Assembly (NCBI GenBank): GCA_963169875.1 | Contig: CAUJEL010000075.1 | Span: 17,899-81,898, forward strand | DNA: 64,000 nucleotides | Source: Candidatus Zhuqueibacterota bacterium | Lineage (GTDB): Bacteria; Zhuqueibacterota; Zhuqueibacteria; Residuimicrobiales; Residuimicrobiaceae | Reading direction: 5' to 3' | Shown here: positions 42,452-60,770 of the stretch, piece by piece | How positions within the stretch are numbered: the stretch's first letter is position 1 | How the letters are laid out: each line of letters starts with the position of its first letter | The notes under the pieces: model-generated | What the model saw: only the letters and a program-made list of their open reading frames with translations | Database searches by the model: none | What the model was told of the DNA's origin: nothing | Position numbers and translations under genes: made by a program

Positions 42452-44509
42452 CTACCTCGCAGTTATTAAACTTTCTGTTTTATAAATATCCACCTTGGTC
42501 TCCAGGCAAGGCCGCAGATCCAGGTCCAGGCTGCCGATGCTGTACCAGTCATCGGGTTTTTGGAAATAATCCAGGCCGCGGCCGATTTTGATCACCCAGC
42601 CCGTATCCAGCGTCACTTCACGATCATGCAGACTGTCGCGGAATGAAAAGGTGAATTTCACGCCGTGTTCCGCCAAGCTTCCCTGGAGGATGAGCAATTT
42701 GGCGCCTATTTCCGCCCGCTGCGCTTCATCGTCAAATCCGGTTATCAGATCGATTTCGTTGACGCGGCTTTTGGTGACAACCAGCTCGCAAAACCGCAAA
42801 AAGTTTTGAATCTGATAGGGCATGCGCACATAGGGATCTTCGACCTTGATCTTTTTGGCGCTTTTGATGTAAGGGGCAAATATGCGGTCGTACGAATAGC
42901 CCTTCTCGCCATAGTAGATGGTATAATGCTGCTCTTTTAATTCCGGATCATTTTCGCTGATAATCGTCAAGGGCACATTCGCATCCGACTCCTCGCCGGT
43001 GTACGTCAAGGGAAGCACCTCTGTGCCGATGTCCAGCTTTTGCCGCACCGGCTCCTGTGTCGCCCTGGCGGATTTTGATTCAGGGCACCAGACCACGATC
43101 TCTTCGCCCTTCCCGTTGATATAGGAAAGGTTGATCTTTTCATATTCCTCATCCGGCTTGCGTTTGTTGAGCTGTTCCTTGACGCGGCGCCGTCCTTCCA
43201 ATGCAAACGCCATGTACTCTTCAAGCTCCGATGTCGTGGGCTCTCCGGATGGATGCAGCAATTTCAGTAGCGCGGCAACTGTCTTGATGACGCCCTTCTC
43301 ATCCCGGCCTTCTACCGAGGCGCCAAATTTGCAGTGACTCTTGACGTAATCATAGCGGTTGCTCTTGGAAAGATGATGAAAAGCCTCGGCGAGATAATCG
43401 GTGATGAAACCATAGGCATCGGTTAGAGAGCTGCTGCTGTTTTTCGGGATTTCCCAGCCGGGCAAATAGTGATAAAAGCGGTCCAGAAGCGCTAGGTCGA
43501 ATTCCCTGGGCAGGCTGACAAACAGATCGTGTTTGGGGGAATGCACCAATTGTTCCACGGAAAAATCGATGTTGCCGACGAATGCGAAACTGGCATTGGC
43601 GATGACTTCGACGCCGCGCGAAAAGCGTCCGTTGGCCATGTAATTTTTCATCACCTCTACGGTGTCAGGATCCTTGAGCCGCACCCGTCCCACTTCATCA
43701 AAGGCAATGGTATCCCAATACCCCACCAGTCCCACCTTGTGTCGGGCATTGTTGTAAAAGAGCGTCGGCGTGCTCGCCTGACTGACCAGTGTAGAGTAGG
43801 GTGAAAATTCGCTGTAGACATAGGATTTGCCGGTGCCGCGTGGACCCAGTTCGATAAAGTTGTAGTTGGACTCCACCAGGGGAAAGAGCCGGGCGAGAAA
43901 ATGAAATTTCAGTCGCTGCGACATCCTGGCGGGTTCGAGGCCGATGGAGCGCATGAGGATGTCGAGCCATTCGTCGCGGGTGAATGCCGCGCGGCCGCTG
44001 GTGAACTCGGCAAAATCGAATCGGGAGAGCTGGATGGGCTTCAGGTCTTCGATATAAAAAGCATAGTCATCTTCATCGATATCGTTGTGCGCGACAACCA
44101 CTTCCGCCCAAATGCCGCCCTCCAGCAGCCGGTCATTATCGCGATAATATTTATCCGGGATAGCGATGCGGCGCGAATTAAAATTCTCCATTTCCGCCCA
44201 GTGGCGCTTCTCGTTTTCCTTATAAGAGACATGCACCTTGTCGATGAATTTGTGCCGCCCTTTTTGCTGCACGGTGGACTGCGCCTTGTTGAATTCATCC
44301 GGGCGCACGTAATTCTTCTCCAACGTTTCGAACACCGCCTGGATACCGGCCTCGATCTCTTCTGCATCATCGCTGGCGCAGTAGCGCGCCAACAGGAACT
44401 CGAGCACGAAGGATGGGACGTTGGTGCCTTTTTTGATCCGGTGCAGCAGGTCCTTGCGAACCACACGCCCGGCGTACTTTTCATTCAGTTTTTCATCTAA
44501 TGGGTCCAT
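42452..44509 (-). CDS. brxL: BREX protein BrxL with C-terminal MIT_C domain
   Basis: 685 aa. The N-terminal BrxL region (LDEKLNEKYAGRVVRKDLLHRIKKG) and an AAA+ core with GPRGTGKS (222-229) and WDTIAFDEVGRV are typical. In type 1 BREX, BrxL is needed for phage defence. The C-terminal part (about 530-680) is not the expected Lon-protease-like domain but matches MIT_C, a phospholipase-D-like fold: YDRIFAPYIKSAKKIKVEDP, QIQNFLRFCELVV, SLHDREVTLDTGWVIKIGRG. This ending resembles human MITD1. Its start is 3 bases after the pglZ stop, so the two are coupled. Confidence 0.9.
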   Translation of the reverse strand: MDPLDEKLNEKYAGRVVRKDLLHRIKKGTNVPSFVLEFLLARYCASDDAEEIEAGIQAVFETLEKNYVRPDEFNKAQSTVQQKGRHKFIDKVHVSYKENEKRHWAEMENFNSRRIAIPDKYYRDNDRLLEGGIWAEVVVAHNDIDEDDYAFYIEDLKPIQLSRFDFAEFTSGRAAFTRDEWLDILMRSIGLEPARMSQRLKFHFLARLFPLVESNYNFIELGPRGTGKSYVYSEFSPYSTLVSQASTPTLFYNNARHKVGLVGYWDTIAFDEVGRVRLKDPDTVEVMKNYMANGRFSRGVEVIANASFAFVGNIDFSVEQLVHSPKHDLFVSLPREFDLALLDRFYHYLPGWEIPKNSSSSLTDAYGFITDYLAEAFHHLSKSNRYDYVKSHCKFGASVEGRDEKGVIKTVAALLKLLHPSGEPTTSELEEYMAFALEGRRRVKEQLNKRKPDEEYEKINLSYINGKGEEIVVWCPESKSARATQEPVRQKLDIGTEVLPLTYTGEESDANVPLTIISENDPELKEQHYTIYYGEKGYSYDRIFAPYIKSAKKIKVEDPYVRMPYQIQNFLRFCELVVTKSRVNEIDLITGFDDEAQRAEIGAKLLILQGSLAEHGVKFTFSFRDSLHDREVTLDTGWVIKIGRGLDYFQKPDDWYSIGSLDLDLRPCLETKVDIYKTESLITAR

Positions 44510-44512: not shown

Positions 44513-47026
44513 TCAATCCACATAATCGGTTTCCAAATCCAGGGTAGCATAGGTTAATTGGGTCACGGGATCAAAGGCGCGCACCTGAAACGCGCCGTGA
44601 TAGTCTTCCTCCATGCGCAGGGAGATGCGCACGGCTTGTCCGCTCTGCAAGGTGATCCAGTTGGTGTCCGGATTGATGTATTCACTGGCAGCGGCTTCGC
44701 CGACCTGGCGCTGGCCAGCGAAGGCTTCCAGTTGGAACGTCGCTTCACCGCCAAACAGGGAATCACTAAAGATGGAGACTTCAATCATGGGCCGTCGCGT
44801 GGTGATCTTGCGGGAAGTGCCCTTGCGATACTGCAGGGCGATCTCCAGGCGTGGCTTTTCCTCGGCTTTTTTAGTGTCCAGTGAAATCACCAGAACCGGC
44901 AGCAGGGCTTCCTGCAGGGAGAGGCCCCCATGATAGTAGGGTTTTCCCTTTGAAAACGCGGCAAAGGTTTTGGGCACGGCATAGGTCTTGAACGTCCCGC
45001 GTATGCCCGCCTCTTGCGGTGAGAAAGCGGCGACGCCTGCATTGCCGGAGCCCGTGCCTAGCAGAAAGCGCTCCTTGGTGACCGTCCATTCGCCCAGCGG
45101 CTTGGCCGCCACATCTCCCGCGGCCTGCTCGTGCAGCAGAATAAAACCATGATCCGTGACCACGACAGCTTGATCGAATTTATGCTGTTTGACGACATGG
45201 ATCGCTGCGATGAGCTTGCGCAAAAGCAGGGAGATGAATTGCCGCGCCTCGAACGGGCTCATGGTGCCCATGTCGTCAATGTCGGTGGTTTTGATGATCC
45301 ACAGCTGTTTGTGGGGTTCCACTTTGAGGCGGTGGCCTGCCAACAGATCATTCAGATCATTCATCAGACAGCGGTCGCCGTAGATGCTTTGCAGGTATGC
45401 AAACCGATCCGCCGGTGTCCTGATCATGCGGCCGTCGATGCTCGGAATGATGGCGCCCTTTTCAATGGAGATCTCCATTTTGGTCTGAGCGAAGGGCAGC
45501 AGGCTCGCCATGCCCACGGCGGTGATGGTGGGCAATTGGGCACATGCGGATTCCAGGGTGATTTGATATCGGCCCGACAGTTCGTTTTCGAGTTCGGCAG
45601 CCAGTTCATAACGCAGGGCATCCACCATAAAAAAGGCGGTTCGTTTGTTTTCTGACAAGAGCGGGGCGACGATCTTGTCAAATACCTCGCTGTTGCGCAA
45701 GCGGCCGCTGGCGGGCCAGCCCTCTTTCTCGACCGCAGCGATGAAAAGGGACTGCAGCCATTCGGAAGTTTTGGCATAGTTTTGCCGCGCCTGCTGGATC
45801 ACCCCCTCCAGCAAGAGGAGGTCGCCATAGACTTCGATGACAGCCGCTTCCATGTTGCGATAGGCGCGGTCGACAATCCGGAAGCGTGAAATATAAAAGT
45901 AGATCAGCGCATTGGCATCGGGGCGGTTTTTTTGCAGTTCAGGTTCGAGATCATTTGTCAGCGTCAACAACTGCAGCGCCCGTTCCGCAAGGATCCAGAG
46001 CTGTTGCCGTTCGGGGAGATGGCGCACCCATAGCGAACCGCGCCGGTGTGTTATGATCTCTTCGCAAGTTTCAAAGGCCCCAGTGGCGACCGCCTCGCAA
46101 AAGCTATGCAAAAAGGTGCGTTCTTCAAAGGCAAAGGTATCGCGATGACCCAGATTTTTGTACGCCGCCAAGTGCTGTTCCAGCCGCAGCGCGGTGGCCG
46201 TTTCCTCGGCGCGCTGCATGTAGAGCATTTGATGCCGCTCGCTGCCGCGCAAATCTTCACAGACGCGAAAGATGAGGGATTGGGCCGCTTCGTTGGCCCG
46301 GGGGACTTGCTGCAATCCTGTTGGCAGCGCTTCTGGCAGGTCAAAGGCAAATTCACTGAACAGGGTAAAACGCCACAATTCCCGGGCTATTTCATCATAG
46401 CCCCCATCTGCGGGCGTGAAGGAGAACGTGGCAGTACAGAAAGATTTGTATTCGTCGCGCCATCCGGCATCCCGGGTCAATCGCTGCGCCTGTTGCGCAT
46501 CCGGGGAGAGCAGCGCGATGAGAATTTCAGCAGATGATTCGACCTTGAGAAGGCTTTTGATCTTGGGCCAATTTGTGCTGCCTTTGATCAGTTGATTGAT
46601 GGTTGCATAGTCCGGTACTCCTTGTTGAAACAGCTTTTCGAATGGTCCGCGCAGTTCCGGCGCCGCCTGCAGGCACAGGCCAAAAAGCGATTCGCTGTCG
46701 GATTCCGGGAATTCGCCGCCGCCCAGAGCGAAAATTTGGTAGGGATTCTGTTGTTTCTGCTGTTCTGAAACAGGTCTTGGCGCTGGTAAATAGATGATCA
46801 TTCTGTCTTGCTCGTGGTCAGTCTGACCCATCCTGCACCAGAGCGAGAGGGCTTGTTCGCGGCCAGCAATCGTGGATGTGGAGCCGTCGATAAAATGGGT
46901 ATGATCATTGATCAGTCCGGCGGCAATTTCATTGTAGCGGTTGGCGGGATCGTAGATCACCAGCACGGAAGATCTCTGCAACCGTTGTTCAAGGTAATGC
47001 GCGATATAGGTTTCTATTCTCTTCAT
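44513..47026 (-). CDS. pglZ: BREX phosphatase-like protein PglZ (type A)
   Basis: 837 aa, usual length for PglZ. The alkaline-phosphatase-superfamily domain is in the second half: TAFFMVDALRYELAAEL, LPTITAVGMASLLPFA, AVVVTDHGFILL and YYHGGLSLQEALLPVL carry the metal-binding Asp/His residues. The N-terminus (SVLVIYDPANRYNEI) is typical as well. PglZ is an essential BREX core protein that associates with the methyltransferase and helper ATPases. It is separated from the rest of the core by two toxin-antitoxin insertions, so it must be transcribed by read-through or from a promoter in the abiE region. Confidence 0.93.
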   Translation of the reverse strand: MKRIETYIAHYLEQRLQRSSVLVIYDPANRYNEIAAGLINDHTHFIDGSTSTIAGREQALSLWCRMGQTDHEQDRMIIYLPAPRPVSEQQKQQNPYQIFALGGGEFPESDSESLFGLCLQAAPELRGPFEKLFQQGVPDYATINQLIKGSTNWPKIKSLLKVESSAEILIALLSPDAQQAQRLTRDAGWRDEYKSFCTATFSFTPADGGYDEIARELWRFTLFSEFAFDLPEALPTGLQQVPRANEAAQSLIFRVCEDLRGSERHQMLYMQRAEETATALRLEQHLAAYKNLGHRDTFAFEERTFLHSFCEAVATGAFETCEEIITHRRGSLWVRHLPERQQLWILAERALQLLTLTNDLEPELQKNRPDANALIYFYISRFRIVDRAYRNMEAAVIEVYGDLLLLEGVIQQARQNYAKTSEWLQSLFIAAVEKEGWPASGRLRNSEVFDKIVAPLLSENKRTAFFMVDALRYELAAELENELSGRYQITLESACAQLPTITAVGMASLLPFAQTKMEISIEKGAIIPSIDGRMIRTPADRFAYLQSIYGDRCLMNDLNDLLAGHRLKVEPHKQLWIIKTTDIDDMGTMSPFEARQFISLLLRKLIAAIHVVKQHKFDQAVVVTDHGFILLHEQAAGDVAAKPLGEWTVTKERFLLGTGSGNAGVAAFSPQEAGIRGTFKTYAVPKTFAAFSKGKPYYHGGLSLQEALLPVLVISLDTKKAEEKPRLEIALQYRKGTSRKITTRRPMIEVSIFSDSLFGGEATFQLEAFAGQRQVGEAAASEYINPDTNWITLQSGQAVRISLRMEEDYHGAFQVRAFDPVTQLTYATLDLETDYVD

Positions 47027-47143: not shown

Positions 47144-47272
47144 TCACAATAACCTGGAGATCAGACGCGAGGAAACCAGCGCACGGGAAATAATCAAATC
47201 CTGCTCGATTTGTTCATTGCTGTTCCAGGGCGCCCGGGCGCGCCAGGCGGTGATATCTGCGCGCGGGATCAC
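47144..47272 (-). pseudogene. Truncated abiEii toxin remnant
   Basis: A GTG start overlaps the abiEi stop (GTGA). The frame reads VIPRADITAWRARAPWNSNE and QIEQDLIISRALV, which matches the N-terminus of the AbiEii nucleotidyltransferase toxin, then diverges after about 33 codons and stops at 42 codons. AbiEii is normally about 300 aa with the catalytic motifs downstream, so the toxin is lost. The remaining 117 bases before pglZ contain no further remnant. Confidence 0.75.
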
Positions 47273-48078
47273 GACTCAGCCTCGCCACTATGGTTTTCAA
47301 TGATCATCCAGCGGTTCGCAGAGGAAAACCCAGTTTTGATTTTGTTGGGCTCCATTGGAAAACGATGACGAATGCGCATCTGTAACCGGCCGTGGATAGC
47401 ATCTGCCAGATCCCGTTTTCCAAGAATATTTTCGAGAATATAACCGAGCCGCTGCCACGATGCCAGCGCCGATTTTTCGATTGCGAGGTCAGCCAGAAGC
47501 TGTGGATTGAGCCCTTCGGCCAATTCTTCAAGGACGGAGATACAACGGACCAGTCCACCGAGACGCTCATGATAATAGACCAGATCATAGGCTGTCAGTT
47601 CAGGGCTTGAGAGGCGCACCGTACCCGTGTCGGTCTTTTTTTGTATAATACCCTTTTCAGGAAAATCGCTTTTTACAAAAAAATTGATCTGGATGCCTTT
47701 TTTTTTCAAGCTTCGTTTGGCGGGTTTTGGAATGACGATGAAAAATTCTTGCGGCTGCTGATGCGCTGCGCCGTGCATGGCTGCAGCGCTCAACAGCCCG
47801 ACATAGTACGGTTTGTTCAGATGGGACATATAATCGTCCAGAAACAGCAGTGGCGGCATTATCCCTCTGGCAGAATATTCGGGAGGCACGATGAGGTAGA
47901 ATTCGCGTTGCAGCGCCACCAGACGGCCTTTGCGGATCAGCCGATGCAGCGACTTTTTCAGCGCCAACTCGGACTGCTCCAGAGTCTGCGTAACCTCCGG
48001 CCAGGCAAACGTATACCGGCCCATGGATTGCAGCCGCTCGATGTACTCTGACAAATAATTGTACATTTTAGGTGGCAT
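47269..48078 (-). CDS. abiEi: AbiEi-family antitoxin (type IV), orphaned
   Basis: 269 aa. An N-terminal winged helix (FAWPEVTQTLEQSELALKKSLHRLIRKGRLVALQREFYLIVPPEY) is followed by the AbiEi antitoxin domain (PPLLFLDDYMSHLNKPYYVGLLSAAAMHGA, SSPELTAYDLVYYHERLGG). In AbiE systems this protein represses its own operon and blocks the AbiEii toxin. Here only a 42-codon toxin stub remains downstream, so the gene may persist as a regulator or as an anti-toxin to an AbiEii elsewhere. A perfect 21-bp palindrome overlaps its promoter. Confidence 0.9.
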   Translation of the reverse strand: MPPKMYNYLSEYIERLQSMGRYTFAWPEVTQTLEQSELALKKSLHRLIRKGRLVALQREFYLIVPPEYSARGIMPPLLFLDDYMSHLNKPYYVGLLSAAAMHGAAHQQPQEFFIVIPKPAKRSLKKKGIQINFFVKSDFPEKGIIQKKTDTGTVRLSSPELTAYDLVYYHERLGGLVRCISVLEELAEGLNPQLLADLAIEKSALASWQRLGYILENILGKRDLADAIHGRLQMRIRHRFPMEPNKIKTGFSSANRWMIIENHSGEAES

Positions 48079-48103
48079 GCCCCTATTGTGTTTTCGTTTT
48101 CTT

Positions 48104-48132
48104 AAAATACCACTTTGTGGTATTTATTGCAA
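48104..48132 (-). promoter_or_regulatory. abiEi promoter with overlapping palindromic operator
   Basis: On the minus strand TTGCAA (-35) and TATTTT (-10) are 17 bases apart. The palindrome AAATACCAC-TTT-GTGGTATTT (48105-48125) fills the spacer and the -10, as expected for AbiEi autorepression. The start codon is 26 bases downstream of the -10. Confidence 0.7.
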
Positions 48133-48192
48133 ACAAAAACTTGATATAGATGAATATTCCTCACACTGTGGATAAGGTGGGCCACTCCTGAG

Positions 48193-49380
48193 TTATTTTT
48201 GAAAAAGCTTGCGCACTTGTTTGTTGCCTACCAAATCCGAGAGTATGCGGTAATTTCTTCTTTCCCAACGGATGCGTCCGGCGATGATGGCTGGATGAAT
48301 CCGCAAGCGGTCAGCCAGTTTGTTGATTTGATCGCGATCGTCCTTGTGCTCGAATAAATCCCAGATTCTGGCGGGGAGCAGTGCTTCCCGCGCCAGTTCA
48401 TCCGCGGCGCGTTCCTTGTCATCTCCTTCGGCATCCAGATCATCGATAATGCAGTCAACATCATCCTTGTCGATATGCAGCGCTACGTGCGCCAGCTCGT
48501 GGGCGAGGGTGAACCAAAAATTATCCAGGCGATCGTAGCGCAGCGTCAACGCAATGACCGGAGCGCCTTGACGGCTTTTCATCACAGCGCCGTCCAGGTG
48601 CGTTTTGGCGAGATGTTCAAGCACAATGAAATGGATTCCTGCCTTGGCGAGGTATTCCTGCACCAGACAGGGGCCTTCCTGGAGATAACTCAATTTGGCG
48701 ATATCTGTGATGTAGGCCTTGGTGATTTGGCCTTTATGGTATGGCGGCAATTCCGCCTGGCGATCCGCTTCTTTAAGCACCTGGGCTTTCCACGCTATCA
48801 ATGCATGGGCATCGATGGTGCCGTTGGTGCGCACGATCTGACGGCAAAGTGCGCCCTGCAGGACCTGGGTATCAACACCGCGGAAAAATTCTGTCAGCAG
48901 TTCTTCGCCACGGTCCGCGGCCTCTTTTGCGTTGTCTTGGAAGCCCTTCAGCCAGCCGCGGGCTGCCATCTCGCGGATGGGAAAGCGTTCCCAGTTGAGA
49001 TCAGCAATGTCCTGGTCCGGTTCCTCTTCGCTGATCAATACATCAAGGGGGATTTGCAGCGTCTGATGCAGTTTGCGGATCATTTTAAGAGTCAGCGGCT
49101 GCTTGCCGCTGAGCACCTCGGACACTTTGCTTTTGCTGCCGATGAGTGGAATAAGATCTTTTTGTTTCAAGCCCTGTTGATCCATGCGGAATCGGATAGC
49201 GGCCAGCGGATCGGGTTTGTGCAGCGGGAATTCCTGCTCTTCCCAGGTTTCGATGAGAAAGGTCAGCAGCTCCAGTTGATCGCCTTCCGCGCTGCCTGGA
49301 TCTGGATCGAGCACAACGAGACGCCTGGCTTCGTTTAACGCCGCCTCGTAATCCTGATTATTTTTGATGAGCTTTATCAT
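48193..49380 (-). CDS. higA: HigA-like antitoxin fused to an ImmA/IrrE metallopeptidase domain
   Basis: 395 aa, three times the length of a plain HigA. Residues 1 to about 120 form the HigA region with a helix-turn-helix (LKQKDLIPLIGSKSKVSEVLSGKQPL). The C-terminal half is an M78/ImmA-IrrE domain with an intact zinc motif, FTLAHELAHVALH (HExxH), and a downstream acidic ligand region (KERAADELAREALLP). Such peptidases cleave repressors or antitoxins, so it might be self-limiting under stress (inference). It follows higB by 17 bases, the usual toxin-first order of higBA. Confidence 0.9.
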   Translation of the reverse strand: MIKLIKNNQDYEAALNEARRLVVLDPDPGSAEGDQLELLTFLIETWEEQEFPLHKPDPLAAIRFRMDQQGLKQKDLIPLIGSKSKVSEVLSGKQPLTLKMIRKLHQTLQIPLDVLISEEEPDQDIADLNWERFPIREMAARGWLKGFQDNAKEAADRGEELLTEFFRGVDTQVLQGALCRQIVRTNGTIDAHALIAWKAQVLKEADRQAELPPYHKGQITKAYITDIAKLSYLQEGPCLVQEYLAKAGIHFIVLEHLAKTHLDGAVMKSRQGAPVIALTLRYDRLDNFWFTLAHELAHVALHIDKDDVDCIIDDLDAEGDDKERAADELAREALLPARIWDLFEHKDDRDQINKLADRLRIHPAIIAGRIRWERRNYRILSDLVGNKQVRKLFQK

Positions 49381-49814: not shown

Positions 49815-52070
49815 TCAGCTATCTTCTTCGTCTTCCTCCTGCGGTTTGGCGCGCTTGCGCCGGGGGGCTTTGCTGTCGTCGTACAGCGCTTCGAGATCGT
49901 GGGCGATGGCCAGCGACTTGTCGGTGACGCATTTGCCGCGGACGCGATCCGGCCAGATGGCATAGGCGAGATGGGCCCAGTCATAATCGCCGGCCTTGAG
50001 CTTGTCCCAGCACGCCATGAGGTCTTTGCGCCATTTGGGCAGCCGGAAGAGTTTCCACAGCGGCGCCGCGGTGATGAGCACGCCGTCATTGAGGTCCGGT
50101 TTGTAGGGCAGTTGGGCGACGCGCAGCAGTTCTTCGCGGAAGGCTTTGAGTTCGAGGAGAAAGTCCTCCAGGGATTCGATCCTGGAGAGGTCGGTTTTGG
50201 AGGTGTCCGACAACCCTGGTTTATCCGACATCTGTTTGCGCAGGCGGTCGAGGTCTTTGCTCACTTCTTCGATGCGCGGATTGAGATAATCGTTGACGCA
50301 GGTATAGAGGAACTGGTCATTGAGGCGGTGGTAATAGATCCACAGGGTATAGTTGCCGTTTTCGCTGGAGAGCGGCCAGTAGATGGGCGCCTGGCGGCGG
50401 CTTTTGGAGTAGCGTTTGAGATGGTCCTGGAAGAATCCGGAGGGTTTGCGGAAATAGTCGCGCAGGGATTTGACCTCGAGTATTTCGCAGGCCTCCTGTT
50501 CGATGGCGGCGGCGCGTTCGCCCCAGAGCACATCCAGCACTTCGCGGACGCGGCGAATGATGTCTTCCTGATGGGTCTGGCCTTCCGGGGCAAATGCGTC
50601 ATCGACGAGGATGCCCTCCCAGGAGATGCGGATGGGATATTCTTCATCTTTGATGGTGGGATTTTTGACGCTGCCCTCGGGCGGCAGGGAATTGGCATCC
50701 GGCCGGGCACGCAGCCATTCTTCGCTGACGATGTTGTTTGGCGTTGCCGGTAAACCAATGACATTTAGCAACATTCCGACAGGGCAAGCAGGCAACGGGG
50801 AAAATGGTGACGGAGTTGATGTATTTAATGTATGATTGAGTGATAGACGTAATTCAAATCGGCCAAGGGAGAGGCCGAAACACCATGACATGAAATCAGT
50901 AATTAATGATTGTTGATTAGGTGTCGTTTTTTCCGAGAACTCGGGTTCATCATAAGCATCTAATCCTTGTTCTTCATTTCTCTTTGCTGATAAATTTGCA
51001 TAATTCAATGCGTTACATTCTTCTTTTGTAAAATCATATAACTTGAAAGCGGCTTCATCAATTTCGTCTTGGATTTGATTGATTTCAGACTGCAATTTCC
51101 TGAAATTTGCTTCAATTTCCAAACCGCGTTCGGTAAAGTTTAATCTAGTAACCTGACATAACATGGGAATAATGAAAGCATGTGATGTTTCGTTTGCCGT
51201 ATCAATTGAGCGTTTAACAGTCCATAACCTAAACATTTTTTGTCCCAGTTGACTACCTTCATTAATTTTAATTGGATAAGGAACAGCTCCTATTACGCCT
51301 ACCTGATACGAGCGCGCTATACTTCCAGCGCTGACCATCATTTCTAAGAAGACATTAAAAACCTTTGTATTCATTAGTCCACAAATATCCTGAACAACTT
51401 CTTTCTCAAAAAAGCCAGCTGATCCTTTTACAGAGAAAACGCCGGCAGCCGGCCAGGGCTTAACGGAAAGCATACTACTTGTCCGATCTCCCCAAGTCAA
51501 TCCAGGGAGAAAATAGTATTCCACATTTTGCGGTCTAGAGTTAAGTTTTCCTGTTGCCAGGTCAATGAAATTGCGTATTTCATCACCTTCATTTCCCCAA
51601 TTAACAAGGAGATGAATATCGATATAGTAAGGTGAATATTCTCCTCCTTTTGCAAATGGAGCCCAAATTTTCCCTTCGCAAGTTCGTCTGCAACACCAAG
51701 TCTGGAATTCTGTTATCTCGTCTTTAGTCCAATCTTCTAATTTTTGGGGTGCCTCATAATTGCCATCCAGAATTCGCTCCGCCGGAACTTCCCACCATGC
51801 TCGGACAAAACGAAAGTCATCTCCGGTCTGTAATCCAACTTTTACAGTTCTTTCTTGACCCTCAAATGGGGGAAGATCAGCGAACAGATTACGAATACGT
51901 TCACTGACCCAATAACAGAAAGGTGTTAGTGGAACTTTCTCGAATGAATTAGGATTTACGATATATATATCATCGATGTTCCCGCCACCATGTAAACCTT
52001 TGATTTGTTCGGCTAGCTTTGGCCCCTTATCCTCATGTTGAAGTAGGCGGATGAATAATGTGTTGTTCAT
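49815..52070 (-). CDS. pglX: BREX methyltransferase PglX, C-terminal half (target recognition)
   Basis: 751 aa from the ATG at 52070, which overlaps the OLD stop as ATGA; the longer track start lies inside the OLD gene. It begins exactly where PglX continues after its catalytic part: LFIRLLQHEDKGPKLAEQIK, VPLTPFCYWVSERIRNLFAD, TGDDFRFVRAWWEVPAE, WAPFAKGGEYSPYY, PGLTWGDRTSSMLSVKP. It contains no SAM-binding motif of its own. The first roughly 440 residues are encoded in AT-rich DNA; from about 50755 the DNA turns GC-rich. It must assemble with the N-terminal half to make an active adenine methyltransferase (inference). Confidence 0.92.
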   Translation of the reverse strand: MNNTLFIRLLQHEDKGPKLAEQIKGLHGGGNIDDIYIVNPNSFEKVPLTPFCYWVSERIRNLFADLPPFEGQERTVKVGLQTGDDFRFVRAWWEVPAERILDGNYEAPQKLEDWTKDEITEFQTWCCRRTCEGKIWAPFAKGGEYSPYYIDIHLLVNWGNEGDEIRNFIDLATGKLNSRPQNVEYYFLPGLTWGDRTSSMLSVKPWPAAGVFSVKGSAGFFEKEVVQDICGLMNTKVFNVFLEMMVSAGSIARSYQVGVIGAVPYPIKINEGSQLGQKMFRLWTVKRSIDTANETSHAFIIPMLCQVTRLNFTERGLEIEANFRKLQSEINQIQDEIDEAAFKLYDFTKEECNALNYANLSAKRNEEQGLDAYDEPEFSEKTTPNQQSLITDFMSWCFGLSLGRFELRLSLNHTLNTSTPSPFSPLPACPVGMLLNVIGLPATPNNIVSEEWLRARPDANSLPPEGSVKNPTIKDEEYPIRISWEGILVDDAFAPEGQTHQEDIIRRVREVLDVLWGERAAAIEQEACEILEVKSLRDYFRKPSGFFQDHLKRYSKSRRQAPIYWPLSSENGNYTLWIYYHRLNDQFLYTCVNDYLNPRIEEVSKDLDRLRKQMSDKPGLSDTSKTDLSRIESLEDFLLELKAFREELLRVAQLPYKPDLNDGVLITAAPLWKLFRLPKWRKDLMACWDKLKAGDYDWAHLAYAIWPDRVRGKCVTDKSLAIAHDLEALYDDSKAPRRKRAKPQEEDEEDS

Positions 52071-53749
52071 TTGCCTGCCCCCGAATTTCCACGAAGCCAT
52101 AATATTATTTCCATTATTTTTCCAGGAATTTCTGTTTCTGTATCTGCCGCTATGAGCCTGGCACGTGCAGGCTTTCCCACATTCGGATATTTCTGGCAAA
52201 GTAATTGATACTGAGTATCTCCGCCTACTGATGTTTTTAGTTCATCCTCATATTTTTTTATGAAACGCCAGACACAGTTGCCATTATTACTAAAATTATC
52301 CAACTCGTCATTATAATGTGCCTCTTCCGTTTTGTTATTTATGTCTGATGAATCTTCGTCGTAAACTATGCCAAAAGGTATGTTGAAAGATTGAGCCATC
52401 AGACCGAATTCGGCCAAGTTTCTCTTGCCACCGACTTCTATGACAGAAATTCCTGCCTTATCCAGATCAAAACCTAATCTTCGAGCATATTCTGGGATCG
52501 CTAATTTTTCTGTATCTCCTTCAACAAAGAGAATTCGTGAAGCAAAAAATAATTCGTTGCGTTCTGGATCAAGCTCTTTCAATAATTTCTCTTTTCGTCT
52601 TTCATCATTGGGAAGAGTGGAAAATTTCACAAAAGTTCCACTATCGTTTTTTCTCACCAATCCCACTTGATCATAGTCGGGAATACCTACGAAGTGGGGA
52701 GAATGGGTAGTGTAGATGACTTGGTTGGTTCTGCCGATTTCTTTGAGGGTTTTGTAAAGAGAACGTTGCATTTGTGGATGCAGAAACATTTCAGGCTCTT
52801 CTATTAACAAGATCGCTCCCTGTTTGCGTTGTACCTCAAAAGCCTGAAGAATGGCCAAAACAAGCGCGTTCTGTATGCCCTCACCTAGTTCGGTCGCATT
52901 AATTGTAAAGCAGGCCTCTTTAACACGCAATTCAAGTGATTTGTAAAAATCTAATGTGTCGAATGGCGAAAAGAAGAGATCCAGTTTGTCGCTATCCAAC
53001 ATGGGATCCAATCCAAGTTGCCTGAGAGCGTTTTCTTTTATTGATTTTTCGAGTTGTATAAATTTATCCGTTTTCAGCAGCTCCATGGCTTTTGACATCA
53101 ATTCTTGGAAATGCTTTCTTCTCGATGTGGAAATTTCTTGGCCATTACAATCTTGAACTGTTATTATCTGCGAAGAATCATTAAAATCCTCGTTAATATC
53201 TTCAAAGAGCTGTCTTAAAAGTGAATATCGTGCTGAAGGAAGCTGTTCTTTTAGAGATCTGTTTGTACCAATATAAATCAGTGGGACACTTTCGCGTATT
53301 TCGGCTGGTATACCAATTAAAGGCTCATATTCATTCTTTTGGCCTTTTTTAGGTGCTTTTTTAGGTACCATTGGTGGCTTACCATTAGGAACGATACACT
53401 GCTGTTGCAATCTTGGTTGCCCTTTTTTCTCACCGACTTTGTAACGCGTGTACTCAAATGATAATGTTGGAACGTCTACAATATCAGACTCTTTAAATTT
53501 TCTATATCCAATTGGGGGGTCAATGGTAATTGAAATGCTGATATCCAATTCAGGATCACGGGCATGTATATCATCAAGGTCAAAAGTACTGACAGCTAAC
53601 CAATCTTTGCCTAAAACTTTCTGTATGGCTTTGAGAATATTGCTTTTTCCTGCATTATTCGGTCCAACTAGTGCACAGACTTGAGGAATGTCGAAATCTA
53701 GTTGTTTTATGGATCTAAAATTTTTGATCGTTATATGTTTTATCTTCAT
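52067..53749 (-). CDS. OLD-family nuclease (ABC-type ATPase plus TOPRIM) inserted between the PglX halves
   Basis: 560 aa from MKIKHITIKNFRSI. ATPase: Walker A VGPNNAGKS (28-36), signature-like ELGEGIQNALVLAI, Walker B ILLIEEPE (313-320), and IYTTHSPHFV. TOPRIM: LFVEGDTEKLAIPEYA (Glu410) and IVYDEDSSD (Asp464, Asp466). Proteins of this type (OLD, GajA) are DNA nucleases, several of them anti-phage. No UvrD-like gajB partner is present. The ATG overlaps the PglX(N) stop as ATGA (53746-53749) and its own stop overlaps the PglX(C) ATG the same way (52067-52070), so all three are translated as one unit. The gene is AT-rich, unlike brxC. Confidence 0.92.
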   Translation of the reverse strand: MKIKHITIKNFRSIKQLDFDIPQVCALVGPNNAGKSNILKAIQKVLGKDWLAVSTFDLDDIHARDPELDISISITIDPPIGYRKFKESDIVDVPTLSFEYTRYKVGEKKGQPRLQQQCIVPNGKPPMVPKKAPKKGQKNEYEPLIGIPAEIRESVPLIYIGTNRSLKEQLPSARYSLLRQLFEDINEDFNDSSQIITVQDCNGQEISTSRRKHFQELMSKAMELLKTDKFIQLEKSIKENALRQLGLDPMLDSDKLDLFFSPFDTLDFYKSLELRVKEACFTINATELGEGIQNALVLAILQAFEVQRKQGAILLIEEPEMFLHPQMQRSLYKTLKEIGRTNQVIYTTHSPHFVGIPDYDQVGLVRKNDSGTFVKFSTLPNDERRKEKLLKELDPERNELFFASRILFVEGDTEKLAIPEYARRLGFDLDKAGISVIEVGGKRNLAEFGLMAQSFNIPFGIVYDEDSSDINNKTEEAHYNDELDNFSNNGNCVWRFIKKYEDELKTSVGGDTQYQLLCQKYPNVGKPARARLIAADTETEIPGKIMEIILWLRGNSGAGK

Positions 53750-55812
53750 GCTTGAGCCTCTAGGCAATATGCAGCAGCCTCAACCATCGCGGCATCCATT
53801 ACTCCATAGCCCAGATCAACGAAGACTACAGGCTTAGATTCTTTTAAGAGTATTTCTTCTCGCCATGCCGTGAAGGAGGAGAGAAAAAAACCAGTACGTG
53901 AAGTGATTGCTCCAAGCATACATCTAGAATTAAGAATACCTACGCCTCGTTCAACAAATGCTGCATATAGATCATTTTTTGTACGGGGGAAAGATCTTTC
54001 TATTAAATTTTTAGAATTTTTTCCTGCCTCCCCAAACGGCGGATTCATCAACACCACATCGTAGCGCTTGCGGCAGAGATCGATAAAGGCGAAGCCACGT
54101 GCCGCATCCTCAGCAAACATTCGGCGCGATAAAGCGTGTTCGCCCCCCGCGCGCTCGGCATACCCGGACAAGGCCTGGAGAATCCGCTCCTCCACCGTGT
54201 CCCAAAAATCAGCCTCGGAAATGGCGGAGACATCAAACAATCCCAATTCGAGCTGCCGCTCCTGCGCCAGTTCGTCCATCTCGCTCCGGGTGAACAGCAT
54301 CTCGTTGCCTTTTTTGTCCCGGGCGCGCTCATACATGCGCTGCCACTGCTCTTTGGCCTGGACAATGGCCTCCTGAATCTCCTCCTCGATCTTTAACAAC
54401 GACCCCGCTTCCCCGGCAAGCTGCATGCGGTCAAAGATTTTTTCCACGATCTGACCCAACAACGGCGGCTGCAGCGCGGCGGCGAACTCTTTCAACATCC
54501 CCTTTTCGCCGGGCATGGGTTCGGCACAGACAATGTGACTTCTGAGAATACGCGGCCGCTGCGTTGGTTTGACGTTCTGCTCTTTCCAGGCGCGCTGGCT
54601 GCGCAGCCACAACGCCAGGGCCGCGATCTGCACCGCCCGCGGATCGATGTCGATGCCGTGGAGGTTATGACGCAGCACCAGCTCCGGGATGGCGAGGATC
54701 AGCGCTTCGCGCTGCGGATAATCCGCGGCCAGGGTACGGCCCGTCGCCTCGCTGGCGGGCGCGGCCTCCACCTCCCACGCCTCCTCGTAAATGGTCTGCA
54801 ACAGATCGAAGGCATAGAGCAGAAAATGGCCGCTGCCGCAGGCGGGATCGAGTATCTTCAAATCGCGCGGATCTTTGCCGGGGCGAAATGCGATATTATG
54901 GGGCTGGCGCAGCAGCTCCTCCTGACTCATCTCATCCTGATTCTCCGGCGGCTGTGGCGCCGCTTCGCCGGGCTGCATAAAGACTTCGTGCGGCCGGCGC
55001 ACCAGGTAGCGGCATTGTTCGCTCAGCCGGGTACTGCCCTGGCGCATCTCGTACCAGATGCGTCCCAGGGTATTGTCAGTGAGAAACTCGACCACATAGC
55101 GCGGTGTGAAAAACTGATTGCGCACCGCCAGCTCGCGGCTGTTGCGCGGCGCCGCCGAGGCCTTGCGCATGGCCTGACGCTCTTCCTTGCTGTTAAAATA
55201 TTGATAGATCCAGCCAATGGTTTCATCCTCGGCCCAGACGCCGCCGAGATCGGCATGATTGAGGAGTTGAAACAATTCCTCGAGCGCGGCTTCGCGCGGA
55301 AACAGCAAACCGAAAGGAGAATAGCGTTCGAACAGAAGGCCGAGATCCACCGAGATTTCATCAAACAGCGCCGCGAGAAAGGCGCGGTAGCGCTGATAGG
55401 TGTCGCCCAGCGCCGACCCGGCGACCTGCAGATAGACCTGGAATCCCCGCGACTGCATGCCCTGACGCACGCACTCTTGCACCAGCCCGCGCTCCTCGCA
55501 CATGCGCAGGGCGGCAAACCGGTTCAACACCGTGAACGCCTGTTCGCGCAGCAGACGATCGATGGCCGCCTTGAGCGGATGTTTTTCATCGTGCAAGCCG
55601 CTGGTGAGGTGATCGATGCGCTCGCGCAGCAGCGCGGCCACGCCGCGTTGTTCGTCGTCGAGATGAACCAGCCGCTCCAGGGCCATGATCTGGCCGTCGG
55701 GCTGAATGCCATAACGTTCCTGCAGTTGAATGGCAAATTCATCGCTGAGGAGGCGGCGGCAGTCGCTCACCAGCCGCGCCAGCCGGTTTCGGGTCTGATT
55801 GTCAAATGCCAT
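53746..55812 (-). CDS. pglX: BREX methyltransferase PglX, N-terminal half (SAM binding and catalysis)
   Basis: 688 aa. It has the full N-terminal part of PglX: helical lead region, RNQFFTPRYVVEFLTDNTLG, SAM-binding motif I DPACGSGHF (322-330), HGIDIDPRAVQIAALALWLR, and catalytic motif NPPFG (590-594, gamma-class adenine N6 type). It ends at VDLGYGVMDAAMVEAAAYCL plus four residues, the point where intact PglX proteins run on into the recognition half. The stop overlaps the OLD start as ATGA. DNA is GC-rich up to about 54045 (just past NPPFG) and AT-rich after. Two bases separate it from brxC. Confidence 0.94.
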   Translation of the reverse strand: MAFDNQTRNRLARLVSDCRRLLSDEFAIQLQERYGIQPDGQIMALERLVHLDDEQRGVAALLRERIDHLTSGLHDEKHPLKAAIDRLLREQAFTVLNRFAALRMCEERGLVQECVRQGMQSRGFQVYLQVAGSALGDTYQRYRAFLAALFDEISVDLGLLFERYSPFGLLFPREAALEELFQLLNHADLGGVWAEDETIGWIYQYFNSKEERQAMRKASAAPRNSRELAVRNQFFTPRYVVEFLTDNTLGRIWYEMRQGSTRLSEQCRYLVRRPHEVFMQPGEAAPQPPENQDEMSQEELLRQPHNIAFRPGKDPRDLKILDPACGSGHFLLYAFDLLQTIYEEAWEVEAAPASEATGRTLAADYPQREALILAIPELVLRHNLHGIDIDPRAVQIAALALWLRSQRAWKEQNVKPTQRPRILRSHIVCAEPMPGEKGMLKEFAAALQPPLLGQIVEKIFDRMQLAGEAGSLLKIEEEIQEAIVQAKEQWQRMYERARDKKGNEMLFTRSEMDELAQERQLELGLFDVSAISEADFWDTVEERILQALSGYAERAGGEHALSRRMFAEDAARGFAFIDLCRKRYDVVLMNPPFGEAGKNSKNLIERSFPRTKNDLYAAFVERGVGILNSRCMLGAITSRTGFFLSSFTAWREEILLKESKPVVFVDLGYGVMDAAMVEAAAYCLEAQA

Positions 55813-55814: not shown

Positions 55815-58800
55815 TTATCGCCAGATGATTCTGATTTTTGTGCCCTGCGCCAATTCCTGTTTTATGCTCTCCAACTCTTTGAGAATCTGCTCCAGATCAT
55901 CCACGCTGTTCAGCAGACTCGGCAAGTTCACATGCCATTGCTTGATTTCAGCTTCGCCATTGGGTTCGGACTGGTTTTTTTGCGCCAACTGCAGGATTTC
56001 GCGCTCGACCGCGGTGATGGTCTCCGAGAGAATATAGCGGTTGCTGATGAGATGCTGCAGGCCCTCCAACGTGGCGGGCGCCTCCACTTCAAGACGATCG
56101 AGCTGATCCGACAGTCGCGCGGCCTCCTCCTGGCCCAGCTCGATCCACTCGGGCAGGCGCTGCAGCCGCTGCTTTTGTTCCTCGAGATAGGTGCGCTGCC
56201 CGGCAAGCAACCGTTCCACCGCCGCGGCGATCTGCTGGCCGAGTTCGGCGATATGCTGGCGTATCTGCGGCGCATGATCATAGAAATCACTGCGGGTGAT
56301 GTATTCGCCGAGCTGCTCGCGCACCGCATGACTGCCGCTGACCAGTTCGGCGGGAATGCCGCTGTTGGGCAGGGCGCGGATGGCGCCATCGATGGCCGCG
56401 GCGTGGCGGATGAGCGCATCCATGCCGTTCTTGAACGCCTTTTTCACCTCGCGGGCCCAGCACAGGTCGTCATAAAACGCACAGGTTTCGCCGCCGAGCC
56501 GCAGGGCGGCATCGGAGGCATCCCCCTTGACGATCTCGGCCAGATTGTTCAGCAGGCTCTCGGCGCGATCCACGCCCGGCAGTGCAAGCAGTTGCAGTTG
56601 ACTGACCAGTCCGGCGTACTCGCGCTGCAGGTCGGGAAACCTGCGCATCACACAGCGGCTGATATCCTCCTGCAGCGGCAGGACGTCATCGCCGGTCAGG
56701 TCGAGGAGGCGTTCGCGGGCACGGCTGAGCACTTCCAGACTGATTTTATCCTCGCTGAGGAAAATGCCGATCTTTTTGAAATTGATGGTGTTTTTCAGGT
56801 TATTGATGGCGGTTTCACCGCGAACGGTCACATTCTCGCCGCCGATGCGCAGTTTGATCAGTCCGGCGGTGAGCATGGCGGCGATGAGATAGCGGCTGGT
56901 ATCCTTGGACCAGCCATAGGGGGCGGCGTAAAAATCATCAAGGAACTTGCCGCCATCGACCTGGCCGTGCTGCTCGAGATAGTCCTTGATGGAGACAATG
57001 GCCTTGTGATGCACATCGATCACAGTGGTTGCGCCGCTTTTTTTGATCAGGCTGAGCGGATCGTCCTGGGAAGCGATGCGGTCGAGCCGCTCGGTCTTGA
57101 GAAAGCGCTCTGCGGTCGCCGTGTCGGCGCTGGTGGAGGCTTCGGCGAATTTGTTAAAGACCTGTTCGGCCGCTTCATCGAGAAAATCCCGCAGGGCTTC
57201 AGTGACCTGGGTTTCCGCCGCACCGGCCGGCCGCATCTGGCCGCGGAAGATAAAGGAACCCGCCAGCAGGGCGCGACGCAACCGCACCTGGATCTCTTTT
57301 TCCAGTTGATCAGCGCGCTGGTTTTGCGCGCGCAGATACTCTTCGACATCCTTGTCCGTGGCTTTGTTGCGATTGCGGGCATAGATGTCGCGGCAACGCA
57401 GCACCTCGATGGCCAGGGTTTCGATCTCCGCATCCTTGTGCCCGAGGAAAAAGATGACGTTGTGACTGAGACGCTGCTGCGATTCGAGCAGGCGCTCCTG
57501 GCGCCGGCCCTCGTACTCTTTTTCCGCGACCAGATCGATGTGGGTCTGAATCTCTTCCCGATCGCCCAGCAGCGAGACCGGCATGGCGCCGATATAGACC
57601 TTGATGCCGGTGCTGACCATGCGCGATTGCTGCAGCTTTACGCTGGGCGCCGGTGTGAACAGCTCCCGCAGCAGTGCGTTTTGCAGGCTGTTGATCTCCA
57701 TCGTTTTTGGAAAATGCCGTTCACGTTCCTGATCGAGATCGCGCACTGCCTCGCTCATGAAGCGCAGATTGTTGTCCACTTCATTGAGCGGCACGGATTT
57801 TTCTCTGAGCAAATCTTCCACCGCGGCCCTGACCTCTTCCGTCAGGCTGGGCGATTCGACCGCGGGATGCATCAGCGCCGCCACGTTTTCACGGCTGACC
57901 GGGAAATCATCGAGAATCTGCAGCACCGCGATGGATTTGGCGGTGCGGGTTTGAATCGAATCTTCCCCGAAAATGTGAACGATTTTGTTGACGCCGTTGA
58001 CGATATGGGGGAAGGGCTTTTCGATGTCCTTGCACAGTGCGTCGTAAAAGACCACGGTATTGGCCAGCCGGCCCACGGGCTCATCGGCGAGCAGGGCGCC
58101 GCCGTCGCGGACATGGCTGGTATCGACGAGGACGTCCTGCAGCACCTTGATGGCCGAGCGCAGGCCGATGCCGCCGCGCGTCTTGGCCAACCGGGACAGC
58201 AGCTGCAGGAGAATCTCAAAGTGGACCGGCAGGAAGGGATAGAATTTGCAGAAAGCACTCTTGTCGAGATCGGATTTGTAATAGCGGGTGTTGACGAGCT
58301 GGGTGGCATGGCGCAGTTGCGGGCCATGCTGATCGAACAGCCGTCCCAGCAGGGCTTCGCCGTCCTTGGATTTGCCGAGCAGTCGGGTATAGCAGATTTC
58401 CTTGATGTCGTTGGCCTCGAGGTCGATGCTGACCGGGAAGCGGTCTTTCAGCTTGAAGAGTTTGGCGGTATTGAACGCAGCCTTGGGGTCATCTTCGGTC
58501 AGCGTCTGCTGCGCCGTGGCGACGATCCAGGCATGGCCGCGACCGATGGCTTTGAGGTTCTTTGCCAGGCCGTCGAGGTTGAGGATGAGCTCGTCGCGCG
58601 AGGCGACGTACTGGCCGACTTCATCGACGACAAAAATGACATTCTCACGTCCGGAGCGGCGGCGGATCAGGTCCAGCATCTCCCTGATGCGGTCGTTTTC
58701 GCGGATTTTTTCCTCAATTTTTATATCGTTGAATGTTTTGGTGTCCGGAAAGAGGTCCGGATAGATTTCACAGGCCACTTTTGAAGCGAGGAGTTTCATC

Positions 58801-59414
58801 ACCAGCGGCTGGTTTTTGATCTCATCCCAGCTTTTGCCATTGGCGAGCCCGGCGATGCGTTTTTTAAAGGCATCGAGCTTGTCGTCGCGTTCGAGCATGA
58901 ATTCCAGATAAGCGATTTTTTCGTCGCGGGAATAGCCCGCCCACTGCATGACTTTGGCATAGAGGACCGAAGAGATTTCGGCCATGGTGGCGCCGGAGAG
59001 TTGTTCGGTGGCCAGATCGAGCATGATGACCACAGAGGGATAGCGTTTGGCCATGGCGGCGAAGCGGGCGCGCAGGGGCGCTGATTTGAACTGGTTCTGC
59101 AGCCAGCCCAGAAAAGGCCGGCCTTCGATGGTCTTGTCCGGATCGAGGGCAAATCCGAGGTACTTGGTGAACGAGCTTTTGCCGGAGCCATAGAAACCGG
59201 AGACCCAGACGCCGACCTCGGGGTTTTGGCCGCTGGACATGCCGTATTCGAGTTGATCGAGCAGGCGGTCGAAATGGGCTTCGATGCTGGCGGTGGCCAC
59301 GTATTCCTGAATCTCCTGTTTGAGGAGATCCTCATTGCTGGTTTCGTAGGTGATGACTTTTTCGATGCGGCGGTCGATGGGCCTGGTGGCGTCGAAAATT
59401 TCACGGATCAGCAT
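55815..59414 (-). CDS. brxC: BREX P-loop ATPase BrxC/PglY
   Basis: 1199 aa, expected length for BrxC. Walker A is GFYGSGKS (73-80) right after EVGVWVSG; a Walker B region VIFVVDEVGQYVASRDELIL follows at about 260. The remainder is long helical segments with several coiled-coil stretches (ERLLAGQRTYLEEQKQRLQR). BrxC is a large ATPase essential for BREX host methylation and phage exclusion. It lies 8 bases after brxB and 2 before pglX(N), so it is mid-operon. Confidence 0.95.
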   Translation of the reverse strand: MLIREIFDATRPIDRRIEKVITYETSNEDLLKQEIQEYVATASIEAHFDRLLDQLEYGMSSGQNPEVGVWVSGFYGSGKSSFTKYLGFALDPDKTIEGRPFLGWLQNQFKSAPLRARFAAMAKRYPSVVIMLDLATEQLSGATMAEISSVLYAKVMQWAGYSRDEKIAYLEFMLERDDKLDAFKKRIAGLANGKSWDEIKNQPLVMKLLASKVACEIYPDLFPDTKTFNDIKIEEKIRENDRIREMLDLIRRRSGRENVIFVVDEVGQYVASRDELILNLDGLAKNLKAIGRGHAWIVATAQQTLTEDDPKAAFNTAKLFKLKDRFPVSIDLEANDIKEICYTRLLGKSKDGEALLGRLFDQHGPQLRHATQLVNTRYYKSDLDKSAFCKFYPFLPVHFEILLQLLSRLAKTRGGIGLRSAIKVLQDVLVDTSHVRDGGALLADEPVGRLANTVVFYDALCKDIEKPFPHIVNGVNKIVHIFGEDSIQTRTAKSIAVLQILDDFPVSRENVAALMHPAVESPSLTEEVRAAVEDLLREKSVPLNEVDNNLRFMSEAVRDLDQERERHFPKTMEINSLQNALLRELFTPAPSVKLQQSRMVSTGIKVYIGAMPVSLLGDREEIQTHIDLVAEKEYEGRRQERLLESQQRLSHNVIFFLGHKDAEIETLAIEVLRCRDIYARNRNKATDKDVEEYLRAQNQRADQLEKEIQVRLRRALLAGSFIFRGQMRPAGAAETQVTEALRDFLDEAAEQVFNKFAEASTSADTATAERFLKTERLDRIASQDDPLSLIKKSGATTVIDVHHKAIVSIKDYLEQHGQVDGGKFLDDFYAAPYGWSKDTSRYLIAAMLTAGLIKLRIGGENVTVRGETAINNLKNTINFKKIGIFLSEDKISLEVLSRARERLLDLTGDDVLPLQEDISRCVMRRFPDLQREYAGLVSQLQLLALPGVDRAESLLNNLAEIVKGDASDAALRLGGETCAFYDDLCWAREVKKAFKNGMDALIRHAAAIDGAIRALPNSGIPAELVSGSHAVREQLGEYITRSDFYDHAPQIRQHIAELGQQIAAAVERLLAGQRTYLEEQKQRLQRLPEWIELGQEEAARLSDQLDRLEVEAPATLEGLQHLISNRYILSETITAVEREILQLAQKNQSEPNGEAEIKQWHVNLPSLLNSVDDLEQILKELESIKQELAQGTKIRIIWR

Positions 59415-59422: not shown

Positions 59423-59998
59423 TTATCCTCCAATATGCGTCGAGCGATAATTGCCGTCTTCCGGATAGATGCCGAGAAAACGCAGGGTAGTGCGTCCGGA
59501 ACGGATTCCCGGGTAAAGGATGATCGTGGGCACGCGGAATTTTCCCTGCAGCCGCTGTTCCAGCGAACCGACGCGAATGTAGGGATGCAGCGCCTCGAGA
59601 TCAGTGATGATGAGCAAATCCTTGTGTTCCGGTGTGAGAGCAGCCAGTTTTTGTTCGAGTTTGTTTTTCAGGTCGTCGTGGTTGATCAGAGCCTCGGCGA
59701 TGGTCTGGTTGATGGGCGCAAAATCGAGCGGCGCTTCTTTTTCGCTCTCGAGCCATATGTCGCGCAGCTCGTGCTGCTGTAAAATCTCGTGAATGGCCGC
59801 GGCCATGGAAAACGTATGCACCTGATAGTTGTCCAGCCTGAGTTTAGCCTGCCAGGATTTCAGGCGTCTTTTCACTTCCAGCATCTCTTCGGGCCGGAAG
59901 ATGAGATAATAGACCGGATCGTCGCTGGTCTGATTCAGGCGCTGACCCTGGCGTAAATAGGTGCGCAGTTCGTCAAAATTCTGCTGCAGCGATGGCAT
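59423..59998 (-). CDS. brxB: BREX protein BrxB (DUF1788)
   Basis: 191 aa. Typical features: DPVYYLIFRPEEMLEVKRRL near the N-terminus, LLIITDLEALHPYIRVGSLEQRLQGK and VPTIILYPGIRSGRTTLRFLGIYPEDGNYRS at the C-terminus. BrxB is a small essential BREX core protein of unknown activity. Its start lies inside the end of brxA (26-base overlap). Confidence 0.93.
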   Translation of the reverse strand: MPSLQQNFDELRTYLRQGQRLNQTSDDPVYYLIFRPEEMLEVKRRLKSWQAKLRLDNYQVHTFSMAAAIHEILQQHELRDIWLESEKEAPLDFAPINQTIAEALINHDDLKNKLEQKLAALTPEHKDLLIITDLEALHPYIRVGSLEQRLQGKFRVPTIILYPGIRSGRTTLRFLGIYPEDGNYRSTHIGG

Positions 59999-60770
59999 CC
60001 AGAGCCTCCTCCATGGTGGAAAAATTCCAGGTTATGCGCAGCAAATCGCCGGCGAATTGTACAATAAAAAAACGGGTCGGCAGTCGCTGCAGCGTCTGCA
60101 CGACTTCGAAGGGCTGTAATCCAAAGAGCTGCCAGTCCGGGTGGTGCATGATCTGGTGGTCATTGAGGCCGGAGAAGTGCAGCTCGTGGGCGAGAAAAAG
60201 GGCCGTGAGGGTGGTGATATTGAACGGGCGGAGCTTGCGATCGCTGGTGCGGCCTTTTTCGGCCAGATCAAAATCGGCCAGGCAGGTCATGAGGCCGCGG
60301 GCAATGCGGTCTCTGACCTCGGCGGACCAGGGTGTTGGAATCTCTCCGGTTTGGGTGGCCAGGTCGATGAACTCCAGGGCCTGTTCCTTGATGATCGCGC
60401 TGCGTCCGGCCTGAAAGGAGGTCCAGTAGACGCGGGCGATGAAATCGCGCAGAATCGCGTTGGCGCGGCAGGTGTAAATCAGGAACAGTTGATTGAGCGC
60501 GGCGGTGGATAGGCCGGCCTGCAGCAGAATTTTAAGATAGCGCGCCGGCCGGGCAGCCTCCTTGAAATAGCGCGGGGTGATGTGATTGGAGATGATATCC
60601 CGGGTGCGTTGCGCCGTGGCCTTGCGCAGCAGTCCTTGCTGCACGGCGAGAGTGGTCAGTTCTGCCGTGGAGAGGTCCGGAGTCCAGGCGCGCAGCAGCG
60701 CGATGGTCTCTTCCTGGAGACCGTGGCCTTTGGCGAACGCCACGTTGTATTTGACAGGCGGTTCACTCAT
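59973..60770 (-). CDS. brxA: BREX protein BrxA (DUF1819)
   Basis: 265 aa. It matches the BrxA family: helical, with KEAARPARYLKILLQAGLST, IYTCRANAILRDFIARVYW, LFLAHELHFSGLNDHQIMHHPDW. BrxA binds DNA in type 1 systems. It overlaps brxE by 8 bases and brxB by 26 bases, indicating tight translational coupling. Confidence 0.92.
   Translation of the reverse strand: MSEPPVKYNVAFAKGHGLQEETIALLRAWTPDLSTAELTTLAVQQGLLRKATAQRTRDIISNHITPRYFKEAARPARYLKILLQAGLSTAALNQLFLIYTCRANAILRDFIARVYWTSFQAGRSAIIKEQALEFIDLATQTGEIPTPWSAEVRDRIARGLMTCLADFDLAEKGRTSDRKLRPFNITTLTALFLAHELHFSGLNDHQIMHHPDWQLFGLQPFEVVQTLQRLPTRFFIVQFAGDLLRITWNFSTMEEALDAIAAAEF

Follow-up and report, generated by a model that had tools for sequence, protein, structure and literature searches.

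A BrxL protein with an MIT_C/phospholipase D-like tail in a type-1-like BREX operon, and its candidate role as a nuclease

Introduction

How does the BrxL protein encoded at this locus end, and what might its C-terminal part contribute to a BREX system? The window, i.e., the whole stretch of DNA that was analysed, comprises 64,000 nucleotides from a Candidatus Zhuqueibacterota bacterium, and a first-pass annotation of its letters had claimed that brxL encodes a variant ending in an MIT_C domain instead of a Lon-like domain. The mode by which BREX stops phage is still debated, and a BrxL with a candidate nuclease of its own would make the question of the effector testable by point mutants. In the Lon-type BrxL of Acinetobacter, DNA is bound in the pore of the ring, the protein forms hexamers with DNA and heptamers without it, and the rings are paired tail to tail via the C-terminal domain.

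Domain architecture of BrxL

The gene and its domains are located in the window as follows.

42452..44509, minus strand: brxL, encoding BrxL with a C-terminal MIT_C/PLD-like domain (ATG start, 685 aa)
44093..44476, minus strand: BrxL_N domain, residues 12-139 (PF20442, E 5.7e-43)
43130..44059, minus strand: BrxL AAA+ (MCM-like) ATPase domain, residues 151-460 (PF13337, BrxL_ATPase, E 2.5e-116)
43823..43846, minus strand: Walker A GPRGTGKS, residues 222-229 (read from the translation)
42479..42901, minus strand: MIT_C/PLD-like domain, residues 537-677 (Pfam PF16565)

Both Walker motifs are intact and are conserved in 29 relatives, Walker B being FDE at residues 270-272. At the C-terminus, the Pfam match to MIT_C covers profile positions 1-142 of 142 (E 1.6e-50, 171 bits against a cut-off of 25), and a BrxL with an MIT_C tail is confirmed far beyond chance. 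TIGR02653, the NCBIfam model of full-length Lon-type BrxL, aligns with residues 3-480 only and stops at profile position 484 of 675 without covering the tail (562 bits, below the cut-off of 628); the Lon-type BrxLs of other genomes are aligned over nearly all of the 675 positions. In phmmer searches of PDB sequences, the Acinetobacter BrxL structures 8emc and 8emh matched residues 4-467 only (E 5.5e-125), and residues 529-677 matched human MITD1 (2ymb, 4a5z; E 4.5e-37), in keeping with the MITD1-like C-terminal pattern that had been noticed in the first pass. A match of this region to Lon was looked for by profile and by phmmer and was not found. The replacement is therefore upheld, as is the expectation that it alters the presumed effector or ring-pairing part of the protein, the MIT_C/PLD-like tail occupying the place of the Lon-like domain. 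The PADLOC BrxL profile PDLC02508 (version 2.0.0, 2023) spans the whole protein, residues 1-678 with the tail included, and this model already covers the MIT_C-tailed protein. A Pfam domain search found no MIT domain anywhere in the protein.

Fold and motif of the tail

Residues 500-685 were modelled with AlphaFold2 on the basis of 43 relatives, and the model reached a mean pLDDT of 81. The closest structural match in VIA-align was MITD1 (4a5z; Z 18.1, 147 residues, 2.8 A), followed by SauUSI (7clg; Z 9.2), the NgoAVII R protein (8.4) and human PLD3 (8.2), with NucT (Z 7.9), Nuc (7.4) and BfiI (7.3) lower down. After MITD1 the tail matches mostly PLD-fold enzymes at Z 7-9, and by its model it has a PLD fold. 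SauUSI and NgoAVII are restriction endonucleases, and Z values of 8-9 between a model and such enzymes only show a shared fold and nothing beyond it. The model of full-length BrxL is of low confidence (pLDDT 69), with residues 490-520 below 50.

Two motifs of the tail bear on its possible activity.

42605..42628, minus strand: HKD-like motif H628-D-R630-E-V-T-L-D635 (HxRx4D); H/R/D in 106 of 115 aligned sequences
42569..42583, minus strand: GRGLD motif, residues 643-647; R644 in 24/25 and D647 in 25/25 surveyed sequences, also in human MITD1

Compared to the HxKx4D of the PLD/HKD superfamily, the motif of the tail has Arg for Lys, which could mean weaker catalysis. In the model, HxRx4D is arranged as a strand, a turn and a second strand, with GRGLD following, and we infer that HxRx4D probably stands at the place of HxKx4D and GRGLD at that of GSxN. 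The remaining aligned sequences have H/R/N (six, human MITD1 included) or HRS, HCD and QRD (one each), and these few natural members with Asn or Ser for Asp, Cys for Arg and Gln for His suggest that some of its proteins could lack activity. RGLD was the search pattern of the 80-locus set described below, and its invariance there is partly by construction. Conservation was therefore also read from 25 MIT_C sequences taken from genome surveys and picked without the GRGLD pattern. These keep the motif H in 24, the R in all 25 and the D in 22; D558, Y560, R562, Q566, T590, R630, G637, W638, G645, L646, D647 and R666 are invariant among them, and N569, H628 and R644 are each present in 24 of the 25.

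The BREX operon in the window

Upstream of brxL, further BREX genes are encoded on the same strand.

44513..47026, minus strand: pglZ, 837 aa, directly upstream of brxL (PF08665, E 1e-15; PDLC02561, E 2.3e-237)
49815..52199, minus strand: C-terminal half of pglX, a separate gene, longest ORF 794 aa (PDLC02527 positions 661-1311, E 1.8e-166)
52067..53767, minus strand: OLD/GajA-like ATPase-TOPRIM gene between the pglX halves (AAA_15, OLD-like_TOPRIM; PADLOC GajA, Old)
53746..55812, minus strand: N-terminal (methyltransferase) half of pglX, 688 aa (PDLC02527 positions 1-659, E 1.9e-294; Eco57I methylase domain)
55815..59414, minus strand: brxC, 1199 aa (NF033441, 762 bits, above cut-off)
59423..59998, minus strand: brxB, 191 aa (PF08747; PDLC02465, E 4.2e-70)
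59973..60770, minus strand: brxA, 265 aa (PF08849; PDLC02445, E 6.9e-78)

The order on this one strand is brxA, brxB, brxC, a split pglX around the OLD/GajA-like gene, a two-gene cassette, pglZ and brxL, so that brxL closes what is, by its predicted genes, a complete type-1-like BREX operon. PglZ and PglX fall below the type-specific NCBIfam cut-offs, which marks the system as a divergent type-1-like one.

Other parts of the operon deserve mention in their own right. The cassette between pglX and pglZ (47269-49380, minus strand) encodes an AbiEi antitoxin and an HTH/peptidase-M78 protein, the latter matching PADLOC PD-Lambda-2_B. The pglX region (49815-55812, minus strand) is divided into two halves, one for the methyltransferase and one for specificity, and PADLOC has models for each half. 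Among relatives in which both halves are visible, with the window counted, pglX is split in 29 and a single gene in 26; in many of the split cases the two genes overlap or meet stop to start, and this points to distinct M and S subunits. An OLD gene is also found at the junction of the halves in two other loci (L036 and L039), and a Thioflavicoccus plasmid (L004) has a UvrD-like helicase and a DUF2290 gene there. With its differing genes, the junction appears to be a site where defence genes can be swapped in and out.

Relatives and frequency

When 84,980 species genomes (GTDB) were scanned, at least 558 places encoding relatives came up, and the context was examined in the best 80 of these at least 558 loci. 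Among these 80, MIT_C is the tail of a full-length BrxL, except where the ORF is fragmented or runs off a contig, and nearly all those with a long enough flank have pglZ immediately upstream. Viral contigs gave a similar picture: the 34 MIT_C loci in IMG/VR are nearly all BrxL in BREX operons, some of them truncated, with pglZ just upstream of brxL in nearly all loci with a long enough flank. No stand-alone phage MIT_C family was seen among these 34 loci, and no MIT_C proteins were found in annotated phages.

In samples drawn from phyla, each count including a centre genome chosen for carrying MIT_C, the domain was above cut-off in 5 of 349 Pseudomonadota (a random sample). The other samples gave 10 of 194 genomes for a phylum with cyanobacteria, 3 of 201 for one with Chloroflexota, 17 of 247 for that of an Aliifodinibius genome and 1 of 82 for the phylum of the window itself. 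Of the 349 Pseudomonadota, 13 had BrxL_ATPase above cut-off, and MIT_C is present in 5 of these 13 (4 of 12 without the centre). Weak MIT_C hits in the Pseudomonadota survey were rejected as false positives, two (L101, L103) being ABC-transporter ATPases and the other two aligning to a similar stretch.

The genome of the window encodes, on another contig, a second and divergent BrxL-MIT_C of another clade (L002, G000:C171:9484-9921). The tails of the two BrxLs are 33% identical, and this genome may therefore hold two BREX systems.

The domain also occurs in other architectures. Plasmid pTs485 of Candidatus Thiodictyon (L010 5640-8480) encodes, outside BREX operons, a 947-aa dynamin GTPase with a C-terminal MIT_C whose motif is HDRYVVCD. 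MIT_C is fused to Sel1 repeats in one locus (L134 805-3414) and to IF2_N on a Paenarthrobacter plasmid (L009 7170-8498). Two remote MIT_C-like proteins with HDRxxxTD (L137 1033-1959 and L114 1396-2328) are encoded next to NsnB-like ATPase genes.

A candidate role for the tail and its alternatives

The domain order, the PLD fold, the conservation of the motif and the BREX operon are established by sequence or by model, and together with them a role for the tail as a PLD/HKD-fold DNA nuclease on an AAA+ ring appears fairly probable. PLD-type nucleases generally build their active site from two HKD motifs, as in Nuc and BfiI. Given such two-motif sites and the tail-paired rings of Lon-type BrxL, we infer that MIT_C tails would pair and act on ring-bound DNA. 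The N-terminal and AAA+ parts would load on DNA as a ring, as is known for the Lon-type Acinetobacter BrxL, and a flexible linker (about residues 490-520) would connect them to MIT_C domains that, once paired, would form PLD-type phosphodiesterase sites. The paired tails could then cut non-self DNA flagged by a PglX/BrxC/PglZ complex, the activation being as conjectural as the cleavage, and the tail would add a second nuclease beside PglZ.

The alternative that survives best, which we consider unlikely, is that the tail is catalytically dead and only pairs BrxL rings or binds partners, like the Lon-like tail of the Acinetobacter protein. It would fit a domain that takes the place of an inactive Lon domain mediating tail-to-tail dimerisation of rings; PLD domains such as those of Nuc and BfiI commonly dimerise, and some members are without the motif Asp, Arg or His. 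However, H, R and D are found together in the 106 of 115 sequences even though some pairs are only about 30% identical, and retention at such divergence points to selection for more than an interface, namely for a site.

A further alternative takes up the membrane link raised in the first-pass annotation: the tail would anchor BrxL to membranes or phospholipids, as is reported for MITD1, for example where phage DNA enters. MITD1 is the nearest solved relative of the tail, its PLD fold was described by Hadders et al. (2012) as binding membranes, and one bacterial protein joins MIT_C to a dynamin GTPase. Yet nearly all bacterial members that were found belong to a DNA-binding BREX ATPase, here encoded directly after PglZ; the motif Asp, which is changed to Asn in MITD1, is intact in the BrxL of the window, with HxRx4D kept; and remote relatives sit in Menshen-type nuclease loci. 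The BREX context and the preserved Asp speak against a membrane function as the main role, which we regard as very improbable, and a DNA nuclease linked to the AAA+ ring would be more likely than membrane binding. Finally, that the tail is a wrongly assigned Lon-like domain is practically impossible, since TIGR02653 and the Acinetobacter structures both end before the tail, which itself matches MITD1 and PLD-fold structures, and no evidence in favour of a Lon tail was found by profile, phmmer or structure comparisons.

Kinship with MITD1

Human MITD1 (2YMB, 4A5Z), a protein of cytokinesis, shares with BrxL the domain family of its C-terminal PLD-like domain, which is 43% identical to the tail of the window, and the H, R, GRGLD and DPYxR pocket are common to both; it differs in having an ESCRT-III-binding MIT domain of its own and Asn at the motif Asp. 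MITD1 and BrxL tails are up to 52% identical over 143 columns, more than the two tails of this genome are to each other. In domain trees, which hold one eukaryotic sequence and long branches and have an assumed root position, MITD1 falls on the side of clade A, the clade of the window, across the branch (100/99) that splits two groups of BrxL tails, the other clade including the second BrxL of this genome. Its partner in the tree is the BrxL tail of a Spirochaetaceae member, and MITD1 is joined to it with support of 90/77. A placement of MITD1 outside clade A was considered as well and was not rejected (AU p 0.38).

MITD1 might have been domesticated from a bacterial anti-phage domain, or the transfer might have gone the opposite way, and MITD1 might still bind or process a phosphodiester ligand, a reading to which we give somewhat less than an even chance. 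MITD1 keeps most of the putative active-site residues, with only the Asp changed, so that such a ligand may still be bound or processed. If true, this would add a further bacterial immunity domain common with a eukaryotic protein and would ask whether the PLD site of MITD1 is really dead. As the trees hold a single sequence from eukaryotes and have long branches, this kinship is a lead and not a result. Literature searches found nothing relevant that tied MITD1 or MIT_C to prokaryotic defence.

Within BrxL, the N-terminal and ATPase regions give a tree with two MIT_C clades and two Lon clades. On the best tree, where long branches meet, the tail would have changed twice, and a single change is also possible.

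Comparison with known systems

Compared to the Lon-type BrxL (8EMC/8EMH; TIGR02653), the protein of the window is homologous over residues 4-467, with Walker A and B kept, and over the part in common its identity to the surveyed Lon-type BrxLs is about 38-47%; it differs in its tail, which in the Lon-type protein is an inactive Lon/RadA-like domain.

A more distant likeness is to the Menshen protein NsnC. The remote MIT_C protein of L114 matches NsnC, carries HDRYLITD and has an NsnB-like neighbour, and this match links MIT_C to that nuclease family. It is, however, very remote (24.7 bits to MIT_C, just under the cut-off) and has no BrxL attached, and in profile comparison its similarity to the tail of the window is weak.

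The closest counterpart is the BrxL-HKD of Rakesh and Krishnan (NAR 2026, PMC12839542), who, with reference to Li et al. 2025, described type-1 BREX BrxL in which the Lon-like domain is replaced by a C-terminal HKD-endoDNase with the Lys-to-Arg (HRD) change, in 1030 of 2913 type-1 BREX taxa, and who put it forward as an additional nuclease effector. The two share the N-terminal DNA-binding region, the MCM-type AAA+ domain, the PLD-type tail in place of Lon, the Lys-to-Arg motif change and the operon type; they differ in that the main text of that paper uses neither the name MIT_C nor MITD1. By position, fold, motif and frequency, their HKD domain is presumably PF16565, and the 5 of 13 found in Pseudomonadota agrees with their published fraction. 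Public plasmid annotation likewise names such proteins "MIT C-terminal domain-containing protein". Hence a BrxL with a PLD-type tail is a class already known, and the MIT_C tail is not rare but one of two common BrxL tails in type-1 BREX.
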